From the NCBI RefSeq assembly GCF_000025885.1, contig NC_014011.1, positions 682,001 through 746,000 of the forward strand: a DNA stretch of 64,000 bases, written 5' to 3'. This document shows positions 7,993 through 11,233 of this stretch, in pieces. Numbering within the stretch: the stretch's first letter is position 1; every line of letters starts with the position of its first letter. This DNA comes from Aminobacterium colombiense DSM 12261. GTDB taxonomy: Bacteria > Synergistota > Synergistia > Synergistales > Aminobacteriaceae. The notes below the pieces were generated by a model that saw nothing but the letters and a program-made list of their open reading frames with translations, ran no database searches and was not told the DNA's origin. The translations under genes and the position numbers were made by a program.

Positions 7993-8358
7993 ATGAAGCT
8001 CCGCGAAGTGGTAGAGCATATTAATGGAGACGTTCTATATGGCGAAGAACTGCTCGATTCTATCGAGATAGAGTATGCTTATGGTGCAGATTTGATGAGT
8101 GACGTCTTAGCCTTTGCGAGACCAGGTTCTCTTTTGCTTACTGGGCTTACGAATGTCCAAATAATTCGAACGGCCCAAATGCTTGATATTCCAGCAGTGG
8201 TCTTTGTTCGGGGGAAGCGCCCCCAGGAGCCTGCTATCAAACTGGCATCCCAATTAGGCATGCCAGTGATACTAAGTCACTGTAGCATGTTTGAGACCTG
8301 TGGTGTTCTTTTCAGAGAAGGAGTGTTGCCGTGCAATATCCCGGCGAGAGAGGTGTAA
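7993..8358 (+). CDS. DRTGG-domain protein 1
   Basis: A 121-residue protein resembling free-standing DRTGG domains, a fold of unknown function also found in HPr kinase-like and CBS-containing proteins and in phosphotransacetylases. The pattern of a charged start, alternating beta and alpha segments and a PAVVFVRGKRP stretch near residue 70 matches the second DRTGG protein at 10126 (IIAGGRRP). RBS AGGGGG lies before the ATG. It is the first gene of a five-gene module with a GHKL ATPase, a hydrogenase-like protein, a second DRTGG protein and a PHP phosphoesterase. No catalytic residues are apparent. Confidence 0.72.
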   Translation: MKLREVVEHINGDVLYGEELLDSIEIEYAYGADLMSDVLAFARPGSLLLTGLTNVQIIRTAQMLDIPAVVFVRGKRPQEPAIKLASQLGMPVILSHCSMFETCGVLFREGVLPCNIPAREV

Positions 8359-8804: not shown

Positions 8805-10103
8805 ATGGCTGGAGGGGTAAGAGTACAGGAAGTTCGATGCCGAGGCTGTGCCAATTGTATAAAGACATGTCCCACGGAGGCAATGCGAGTGTTGACTGGA
8901 TGTGTGCACATTATCTCTGATCTTTGCATAGATTGCGGAGAATGCATTCGTAAATGCAAAGAAAAGGCTATCATACTCAATGAAGATGAATGGGAGCTTC
9001 TGAGATCCCAAAAAAAACTTGTTCTCATTGCTGATCCCTGTTTTTATGTTCAGATAGGGTCCTGCGGGTCACCCTTTCTCATGAAAGAAGCTCTTCATGC
9101 AACGGAAATGGAGGATATCCTCGACTGTGAAGCATTAGCTTTTGATGTAGCGGCATATGCTATTGCGCGCCTTGTGGAATCAGAAAGACAAGAGCATCTC
9201 CCCTTTATCTCTACCTATTGCCCAGCAGTTATTCGTCTGATACAGATAAATTTTCCAGAGCTTATAGGTCGTCTTGTCCCCGTAGAATCCCCACTGGAAT
9301 CAAGTGTTATTATCTGGCGCCAAGTGACTGGCCGAAAAGATGAACTAACTCTCATTTCGCCATGTCCAGCAAAAACAACCCTCGTTCGAAATCCTGTAGG
9401 GCGCGAACTCAGTTCTATAGCCTACTCTGTTTCAATAAGACGGGTAGTTCATGATATTTTGGCGGGAAGCCCTAAAATGTCTGGTGAAGAATCCCATAAG
9501 ATCAATGATCGATGGATTAAGTGGTCTATTACTGGCGGTGAATCTCGCCATATTTCTTCTTTCGCCCGCCGTCCTCTTCGCACGGTTTCCGTTTCCGGTT
9601 TGAGGAATACTATAGACCTCCTGACAGAGCTTGAATTAGGAAGGTTGCGAGGAGTGGATTATGTGGAGTGCAGGGCCTGTGACCTTGGATGTATTGGAGG
9701 GGTAGGGACCCATGAATCCCGTTTTTTATCCCGCCTTCGTATTGACGCAATGAAAGTAGATTGGAAAGTGACAGATGAGGAAAAGACTCACATTGAAAAA
9801 TGGTATAAGAAAGGCGTATGGGAGCTAGAACAGGCCATTCAACCGAAACAGCGTCTCCCACTTTCCAGTGATTTGGGAGAAGCCATGGCGAAGCTTAAGG
9901 AAATGAATGCTATTTACGCTGAGTTGCCTCACATTGATTGTGGTTCTTGCGGACGACCTTCCTGTCGAGCCATGGCTGAGGATATTGTGCGAGGCAAAGG
10001 AGAAATGACAGACTGCATTTTTAAACTTAGAGACCGGATCCATGATTTGAGCAAGGAGATCTCGGAACTTTCGGGGAAAGTGCCTCATGCCTACGGATCA
10101 TAG
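8805..10103 (+). CDS. FeFe-hydrogenase-like iron-sulfur protein, probably sensory
   Basis: A 432-residue protein with three parts. Residues 12-51 hold two 4Fe-4S sites (Cys12, 15, 18, 22 and Cys41, 44, 47, 51). The middle is an FeFe-hydrogenase H-cluster domain with all four expected ligands: Cys139 (in TYCP), Cys187 (in SPCPAK), Cys292 and Cys296 (CDLGC). The tail has a 4Fe-4S site of the CxxCGxxxC type (Cys379, 382, 387, plus Cys404). The proton-relay Cys before the first ligand in catalytic enzymes is Tyr138 here. This suggests slow turnover and a sensing or regulatory role rather than bulk hydrogen production. Neighbours (DRTGG, GHKL ATPase, PHP) also look like signalling proteins. Confidence 0.85.
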   Translation: MAGGVRVQEVRCRGCANCIKTCPTEAMRVLTGCVHIISDLCIDCGECIRKCKEKAIILNEDEWELLRSQKKLVLIADPCFYVQIGSCGSPFLMKEALHATEMEDILDCEALAFDVAAYAIARLVESERQEHLPFISTYCPAVIRLIQINFPELIGRLVPVESPLESSVIIWRQVTGRKDELTLISPCPAKTTLVRNPVGRELSSIAYSVSIRRVVHDILAGSPKMSGEESHKINDRWIKWSITGGESRHISSFARRPLRTVSVSGLRNTIDLLTELELGRLRGVDYVECRACDLGCIGGVGTHESRFLSRLRIDAMKVDWKVTDEEKTHIEKWYKKGVWELEQAIQPKQRLPLSSDLGEAMAKLKEMNAIYAELPHIDCGSCGRPSCRAMAEDIVRGKGEMTDCIFKLRDRIHDLSKEISELSGKVPHAYGS

Positions 10104-10125: not shown

Positions 10126-10464
10126 GTGAATATTCAGTACATTATTGATAGCCTGGAGCTTGAAGTTGTGTCCCTTGGGCGACCAGAAATAGAGATCAGC
10201 GGTGCTCTTGCGGGTGACTTGCTCAGTTTTATTATGGCTTCAGCAAGGGAAAAATGGGTATGGATCACTATTCAGACCCATTTGAACATCGCTGCAGTTG
10301 CCGTGCTAAAGGATGTTCCTTTTATTATTATTGCGGGAGGCCGCAGGCCGGCAGAAGATCTTATAGAACGCTGCAAGGAAGAAGATCTGACCCTCGCCAG
10401 TTCGTCCCTTTCTGTATATGAAATTTGCGGACGGCTTTATGAAATGGGCCTACGTGCTTTGTGA
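10126..10464 (+). CDS. DRTGG-domain protein 2
   Basis: A 112-residue paralogue of the protein at 7993, again a single DRTGG-like domain. The GGRRPAED stretch near residue 67 parallels the RGKRPQEP stretch of the first copy, and both end with a YEICGRL or FETCGVL segment. The GTG start at 10126 has a strong GGGGGGAAGGAG site. It lies 22 bases after the hydrogenase-like gene and overlaps the following PHP gene by 26 bases. Two DRTGG proteins flanking a hydrogenase-like protein suggest they act as its partners or as paired nucleotide-binding subunits; this is inference. Confidence 0.72.
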   Translation: MNIQYIIDSLELEVVSLGRPEIEISGALAGDLLSFIMASAREKWVWITIQTHLNIAAVAVLKDVPFIIIAGGRRPAEDLIERCKEEDLTLASSSLSVYEICGRLYEMGLRAL

Positions 10465-11233
10465 TACGAAGTTGAAGTTAAGGCCTTATTATGTAGACCT
10501 TCACATCCATACGGTGCTATCCCCTTGTGGCGAACTTGAAATGGGAGCCCATGATATTGTATCAAAAGCGCGGCAGGAAGGAATTCAGATCATTGCCATT
10601 ACCGATCATAATTCTGCTCTGAACGTGCCTGCTATTACAAAGGCTGCAGGTGGGAGCCCAGTAGTGATCCCCGGTCTTGAAGTTCAAACGGCAGAAGATA
10701 TACACATAGTCACCCTTTTCAGAGATTGCCAGGTTGCCTCAGATTATCAGCGGTGGCTGTGGGAGCGTATGCCAGGCCTTAGAAACCGCCCGGAGGTGTT
10801 TGGTGATCAATTGGTGATTTCCGAGAAGGACGATATTCTTGACGAAGAGGAAATATTACTTGTCCAGGGGGTGGGATATTCTGTTGATGAAGTAGCCCTC
10901 GAAGCGAAGGGAAGGGGAGGCCTTGTGATCCTTGCCCATATTGACAGGCCATCTTTTTCCTATACGGCAGTACTAGGGCCAATCCCTTCCTCCTTTCCCG
11001 CCGATGCCCTTGAGATCTCCTGGCGATGTTCCTCAGAAGAAGTCGAGGTTTTCCGAGAGGAATATCCAGAATGGACATTTATCCGTTCCTCGGACTCCCA
11101 TTGGTTGAGAAGCCTCTGTGTAGAAAACTGTTCGGTCCTTCTTCTGGCGGAACCTACTTTCGATGAAATTGCAAAAGCTATCAGAAAAGAAGATGGCCGA
11201 TGTGTAATTGGTCCCTGGCCCAATTATTTCTAA
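10439..11233 (+). CDS. PHP-domain phosphoesterase
   Basis: A metal-dependent phosphoesterase of the PHP superfamily, about 264 residues. The metal-ligand set is complete: HIHT near the N-terminus, ITDHN, the Glu in GLEV with a following [13 protein letters not shown], and DSHW near the end. Related stand-alone PHP proteins cleave nucleotide or amino-acid phosphates. The start is uncertain: ATG at 10439 follows GCGGACGG at a fair distance, an ATG at 10418 is further upstream and GTG 10454 further down. The gene closes the hydrogenase-like module and its stop overlaps the convergent hisIE stop by four bases. Confidence 0.82.

Follow-up and report, generated by a model that had tools for sequence, protein, structure and literature searches.

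The HydD protein of the amino-acid fermenter Aminobacterium colombiense appears to belong to the group D branch of [FeFe] hydrogenases, and we found none of the three known enzymes for building the H-cluster's diiron cofactor in its host. Reading from sequence, we think it reasonably probable that HydD carries four cubanes but no diiron subsite, and that it acts as a redox sensor or scaffold blind to H2. The gene lies in a window of 64,000 nucleotides (contig NC_014011.1, positions 682,001 to 746,000, forward strand); all coordinates below are those of the window. No earlier report of HydD in Synergistota was found in the open-access literature.

An altered pocket in a hydrogenase-like protein

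Pfam searches give HydD two Fer4-type sites, an Fe_hyd_lg_C domain (60.6 bits) and the FeS domain PF04060. The FeS domains at its two ends, N- and C-terminal, are RnfB-like, and no PAS domain was found. The original prediction was that a tyrosine has taken the place of the relay cysteine in a TYCP motif (Tyr138-Cys139). Indeed, the translation reads STYCP at residues 136–140, where catalytic [FeFe] hydrogenases have TSCCP, and the tyrosine is present in 85/85 orthologues. Alignment with group A (TSCCP) uncovered no relay cysteine at a shifted position; the tyrosine fills the relay column itself. The other ligands that had been proposed (Cys187, Cys292/Cys296 and, at the C terminus, Cys379/382/387/404) are present as claimed, and the span of 9216–9692 is exact, running from the Tyr138 codon (9216–9218) to the end of Cys296 (9692). 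All four H-domain cysteine ligands (C139, C187, C292, C296) occur in every one of the 85 orthologues (Table 1). Two features go beyond the prediction: an arginine, Arg290, at the position of CpI Met497 (85/85), and the missing H-cluster maturases.

Lys190 occupies the CpI K358 position, presumably the cyanide anchor, and Cys296 the position that we take to be that of the bridging ligand in real H-clusters. Three further sites vary, the last two of them belonging to the proton-path set of group D. The M353 position (Ser/Thr) is Ser185 in HydD and Ala in 46/85 orthologues; residue 243, the S249 site (Ser/Thr), is mostly Arg among the orthologues and Thr in the window protein; and residue 264, our presumed equivalent of D265 in the group D enzyme TamHydS, is Ser in 69/85, HydD included, and Asp in 6/85. 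An AlphaFold2 model of the HydD pocket made from six sequences had a pLDDT of 37 and was unusable.

Table 1. HydD, its key residues and its module partners, with window coordinates
Feature	Position	Strand	Remarks
DRTGG-domain protein 1, 121 aa, first module gene	7993..8358	+	PF07085 32.8 bits; upstream at nearly every Synergistota locus, also in two other phyla
RsbW/SpoIIAB-like HATPase, 143 aa	8362..8793	+	PF02518 4e-5 (just below cut-off); spIIAB 1.2e-9
HydD, Tyr-type group D [FeFe]-hydrogenase-like protein, 432 aa (translated from 8805-10100)	8805..10103	+	PF02906 60.6 bits; Synergistota orthologues
Two N-terminal [4Fe-4S] sites, C12/15/18/22 and C41/44/47/51	8838..8957	+	Fer4-type matches; Cys 85/85
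Tyr138, CpI Cys299 relay position	9216..9218	+	Tyr 85/85; Ala in L163, Phe in L164, Cys in group A
Cys139, H-domain cubane ligand	9219..9221	+	85/85
Cys187 (SPCPAK motif), H-domain cubane ligand	9363..9365	+	85/85
Lys190, CpI K358 position	9372..9374	+	Lys in 45/46 maturase-positive and 20/39 maturase-negative genomes
Glu246 = TamHydS E252, group D proton-path Glu	9540..9542	+	85/85
Glu288 = TamHydS E289	9666..9668	+	85/85
Arg290, CpI Met497 position	9672..9674	+	Arg 85/85; Arg in L164, Asp in L163, Met in group A
Cys292 and Cys296 (ECRACDLGC motif), H-domain cubane ligands	9678..9692	+	85/85
C-terminal FeS domain, C379-x2-C382-x4-C387-x16-C404	9924..10022	+	PF04060 47.5 bits; Cys 85/85; TamHydS motif (PMC8163306)
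DRTGG-like protein 2, 112 aa, divergent	10126..10464	+	Weak PF02603/PF07085 matches below cut-offs; position kept in most loci
PHP-domain phosphoesterase (ORF as called; true start may be further downstream)	10418..11233	+	PF02811 6.4e-7

Placement among [FeFe] hydrogenases

In a tree of 45 H-domain sequences (IQ-TREE, LG+C20), the Tyr proteins form a clade with support of 100/99. At 100/100 this clade groups with two homologues, L163 of the Ala type and L164 of the Phe type; group A and the PAS-bearing group C lie on other branches. For the group D label, L163 stands in the tree as a proxy for TamHydS, selected on its motifs, and the label further draws on diagnostic residues from the literature (PMC8163306, PMC10407848, PMC13104023). 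L163 shows the group D marks described for TamHydS: its relay residue is Ala, the E252 equivalent lies in GGE, position 289 is Glu and M353 is Thr, the C-terminal site is Cx2Cx4Cx16C, and a PAS domain is lacking. Judged by its sequence, HydD appears to fall on the TamHydS-like branch of the 'putative sensory' group D, well removed from group A. Membership of group A is ruled out by the tree, in which no such clustering is seen, and by the motifs (STYCP, SPCPAK and ECRACDLGC versus TSCCP, MPCxxK and EvMACpGGC). Group C was rejected on the separate branch and the absence of a PAS match. The predicted kinship with sensory-type hydrogenases therefore stands as an affinity with groups C and D, seen in the tree and in the TamHydS motif Cx2Cx4Cx16C (PMC8163306); the part that found no support is an H-cluster hydrogenase in this host, where HydE, HydF and HydG are absent; across the phylum maturases follow catalytic HydA.

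The small residue, mostly Ala, that group D has at the C299 position is not found here, where Tyr is universal. Sensory sequences in HydDB have Ala at this position in ~43%, Cys in 17%, Pro in ~10% and Ser in ~10%, among others, and Tyr is not named (PMC10055695). The position of CpI Met497 borders the diiron site (PMC8163306). The M497L exchange hampered [2Fe] integration in prototypical enzymes, and changes of C299, except to Asp, abolished or impaired activity (PMC10055695); in TmHydS and TamHydS changed C299 and M497 positions are tolerated and [2Fe] is still taken up (PMC10055695, PMC8163306). The equivalents of E252 and E289 lie on the proposed group D proton path (PMC10407848), and the C-terminal cluster, which the original prediction put forward as a possible route of signal output, is not reduced by H2 in TamHydS (PMC13104023).

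Loss of the relay cysteine is not universal among sensory types, since two group C proteins that adjoin SpoIIE phosphatase genes, L165 and L166 (R. albus, Monoglobus), keep it (SSCCH). Group C-like proteins also occur in maturase-free genomes (L139 in G025, L155 in G026, L188 in G121). The CpI K358 lysine is gone in the aligned L139 and L188 (CIARK and CIASK versus CIAKK), so 'blind' hydrogenase sensors may exist in group C too. Separately, L179 and L189 (second ORF) represent a distinct long [FeFe]-hydrogenase-like family (655–658 aa, TQPCP / DCLSC) beside catalytic HydA in genomes G113 and G111.

Conservation and selection across Synergistota

A protein search of 188 Synergistota genomes yielded an alignment of 85 full-length orthologues with 45–90% identity. 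These score 423–988 bits and the next family ~116 bits, a clear gap from other hydrogenase-like proteins. None of the 85 departs from HydD at Tyr138, Arg290, Glu246, Glu288 or any FeS cysteine, and for Tyr138, Arg290 and the cysteines this is so with or without maturases in the host. Because every orthologue has Tyr138, the relay substitution is more than chance and no local oddity. Within genera, dN/dS is about 0.02–0.04; in the genus to which the window belongs dS has reached saturation, and a sister genus gives dN/dS of 0.03–0.04 at dS of 0.44–0.60. Together, dN/dS of ~0.03 and the invariance rule out a pseudogene or decay.

Other columns vary with the maturases of the host. Pro186 is kept in 46/46 maturase-positive versus 29/39 maturase-negative genomes, and the columns that best separate the two sets lie mostly in the C-terminal tail and in loops. 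To judge from the alignment, these separating columns look phylogenetic, and Lys190 is no more than suggestive. By inspection of the tree, Lys190 was lost in only ~2 or 3 independent events, so its association with maturases may reflect shared ancestry. Scans of viral contigs found no distant relatives.

Maturases and hydrogenases

HydE, HydF and HydG are the three enzymes that build the diiron cofactor of the H-cluster. In the A. colombiense genome (one contig, 1,980,592 bases, 99.9% completeness) profile and protein searches gave no match to HydG, HydE likewise had no match, and nothing passed the cut-off for HydF, where a Der-like ORF of 442 aa was among the best matches with both of its GTPase domains. 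The control, Thermotoga maritima, passed a cut-off in each maturase family search. A fragmentary genome as the cause is ruled out by the single contig and its completeness. HydD is the only PF02906 protein in the genome, which also encodes two [NiFe] hydrogenase large subunits with N- and C-terminal metal-binding CxxC motifs; the two [NiFe] enzymes can account for H2 turnover in A. colombiense.

Across the 188 surveyed genomes, at least one maturase is present in 105/112 of those with catalytic-type HydA (E<1e-60), and in only 6/47 of those that have the Tyr protein and lack catalytic HydA (Fisher p = 3e-24, shared ancestry uncorrected). HydD was found in 36 genera, 17 of which lack every one of the three maturases (19 versus 17 genera). 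Maturases thus track catalytic HydA, which implies that they are retained for that enzyme and not for HydD.

There are exceptions to this pairing. Seven genomes have catalytic-type HydA with no HydE, HydF or HydG found, so a maturation route outside these three enzymes is possible. Two of the seven, G035 (locus L174) and G114 (L171), both ~99% complete, encode catalytic-type HydA with TSCCP and no HydE, HydF or HydG, and HydG was still missing in a second search. In the near-complete Synergistota genomes G108, G110, G116, G118, G123, G125 and G138, HydE and HydF exceed the cut-off and no HydG was found by profile or protein search. TSCCP-type HydA is present in G110, G116, G118 and G123, and G125 (TSCSP) and G138 have catalytic-type HydA as well; G108 has only weaker PF02906 matches. 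The genomes with HydE and HydF but no HydG suggest a source of the H-cluster CO/CN other than HydG, or a very divergent HydG.

A conserved five-gene module

HydD is third in the order DRTGG / HATPase / HydD / DRTGG / PHP, which recurs in Synergistota families f1–f10 and at the L163 and L164 loci; the last two genes are missing in some f8 genomes. The module is common to three bacterial phyla, and elsewhere it contains an Ala-type (L163) or Phe-type (L164) homologue. The HATPase has intact N, G1 and G2 boxes (E49/N53, DRGPGI and GFGAGMGL, kept in at least 95% of 86 homologues), and the metal ligands of the PHP protein (H29, H31, D63, H64, E88, H174, D226, H228) are kept at a level of at least 95%. 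The conserved partners include no oxidoreductase gene. No SpoIIE phosphatase was found in the genome and the sole STAS match is a 546-aa ORF. With no SpoIIE and only one large STAS protein, textbook STAS/SpoIIE anti-sigma partner switching is unlikely.

Discussion

From the motifs, their invariance, the operon, the tree placement and the missing maturases, all of them sequence evidence, we infer the cofactor content, the pocket geometry and filling of the cavity, the redox input, and the signal path and output as follows. HydD would keep the group D scaffold, comprising two N-terminal cubanes, the four-Cys cubane site of the H domain and the C-terminal four-Cys FeS domain. With HydE, HydF and HydG all absent, it would never be loaded with the [2Fe](CO)3(CN)2(adt) subsite in A. 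colombiense. The H-domain cubane would be left on its own, and the cavity that once took the diiron site would probably be filled or lined by Tyr138 and Arg290, which would face it. HydD would then serve as an electron-responsive sensor or scaffold in the cytoplasm, as part of one module with the RsbW/SpoIIAB-like ATPase, the PHP phosphoesterase and both DRTGG proteins, and a redox change at the cubanes would alter its contact with the ATPase and/or the DRTGG partners. Redox state rather than H2 is probably what is sensed, given the altered pocket (Tyr, Arg) and the absence of all three maturases.

The blind-sensor proposal is consistent with HydD being the sole PF02906 protein in a genome without maturases, with invariant Tyr138 and Arg290, with dN/dS of ~0.03, with the conserved catalytic residues of the ATPase and the PHP protein, with a module common to the L163 and L164 loci, and with the same arginine in the Phe-type L164. 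However, E246 and E288 are invariant (85/85) and HydD retains Lys190, as if a diiron site were still anchored. Moreover, TmHydS and TamHydS take up [2Fe] despite their altered pockets, and seven genomes have HydA without HydE, HydF or HydG.

Three other readings were weighed. In the first, use would differ by lineage: HydD would carry an H-cluster and sense H2 in maturase-bearing Synergistota, whereas in Aminobacterium and other lineages without maturases it would persist with cubanes only, as a relic or a repurposed sensor. Lys190 and Pro186 behave accordingly: where maturases are present they hardly vary (45/46 and 46/46), and where maturases are absent the constraint is looser (20/39 and 29/39). 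Group C copies in maturase-free genomes also lack the K358-position lysine. Nevertheless, we regard this division as unlikely: the ~2–3 independent losses of Lys190 allow shared ancestry as its explanation, and Tyr138 and Arg290 are identical between the two sets.

In the second, HydD would be a genuine H2 sensor with an H-cluster present; the phenol OH of Tyr138 would take over the part of Cys299 in relaying protons or in hydrogen bonding, and the partner ATPase would be switched when H2 binds, as proposed for TamHydS. The group D branch and the operon agree with this, as do the invariance of E246 and E288 on the proposed group D proton path (PMC10407848) and the near-constant retention of Lys190 where maturases are present; such a sensor would be useful to A. 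colombiense, which is H2-inhibited and syntrophic (PMC3035294). We nonetheless judge it quite unlikely. No HydE, HydF or HydG was found in the A. colombiense genome or in 17/36 genera, and maturases follow catalytic HydA. Tyr is not among the named relay-position substituents of sensory enzymes (PMC10055695), and the site presumed equivalent to TamHydS D265 is mostly Ser. Finally, an ordinary electron-transfer FeS protein, an RnfB- or ferredoxin-like relay to some reductase with no signalling role, would suit the RnfB-like domains at both ends and the improbability of classical partner switching (no SpoIIE, STAS only in the 546-aa ORF), but is highly improbable given that the genes found time and again beside HydD encode a kinase-like ATPase, a PHP enzyme and two DRTGG proteins, and that none of the conserved partners is an oxidoreductase.

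A blind sensor in A. colombiense may have wider counterparts. It is conceivable, if on balance doubtful, that signalling proteins with the [FeFe]-hydrogenase fold and an aromatic and Arg pocket, encoded in DRTGG-ATPase-HydD-DRTGG-PHP operons, are widespread, ancient and without a diiron subsite even in hosts able to make one. If so, the main task of the group D module would be to sense redox state or another ligand through an H-domain cubane on its own; the H2-sensing role would be derived or misassigned.

Group D proteins are reportedly called 'putative H2 sensors' on the strength of one purified enzyme, whose cofactor is said to have been added synthetically. Here, an invariant and strongly selected group D member keeps the same operon partners in a host without known H-cluster assembly, as it does in 17/36 genera. 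Either the module does not sense H2, or another maturation route exists. The case challenges 'H2 sensor' as the general role of group D. It also carries a warning for annotation: if HydD-like genes are counted as hydrogenases, syntrophic amino-acid fermenters are credited with more [FeFe]-based H2 metabolism than they have.

Nature has used the hydrogenase fold with cubanes only in Nar1/NARFL, a eukaryotic hydrogenase-like protein without the diiron site. Its function is cytosolic FeS assembly, unlike that proposed for the HydD module.

Among the sensory enzymes, TamHydS (Thermoanaerobacter mathranii, group D/M2e) resembles HydD in its two N-terminal cubanes and H-domain Cys ligands (PMC8163306, PMC10407848, PMC13104023), its C-terminal Cx2Cx4Cx16C motif with C379 and C404 numbered alike, its lack of a PAS domain, its E252/E289 equivalents and a flanking gene for a histidine kinase-like ATPase. 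The two differ at the pocket, with Tyr138 in HydD for Ala137, Arg290 for Leu at the M497 position, and Ser264 at the presumed D265 site. Moreover, HydD does not lie upstream of a bifurcating HydABC, and its host, unlike that of TamHydS, lacks HydE, HydF and HydG and any other [FeFe] hydrogenase. TmHydS (group C/M2f) has also lost the relay cysteine (A131) and has a C-terminal cluster (PMC10055695), but this group carries a PAS domain and forms a separate branch.

Two homologues share both the branch and the operon with HydD. The L164 record, NZ_OY725779.1, is labelled 'plasmid' of Parabacteroides distasonis; gyrA and a gene for a Clp ATPase lie on it, and it probably represents a chromosomal fragment. 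The Ala-type L163, in a record labelled Subdoligranulum variabile, is 33% identical to HydD and has the same operon order; unlike HydD, it reads SSACP and ELDAC, and a catalytic-type HydA is encoded nearby. L164 shares with HydD both the aromatic relay residue and the arginine at the M497 position (SSFCP, ELRAC), differing in having Phe instead of Tyr.
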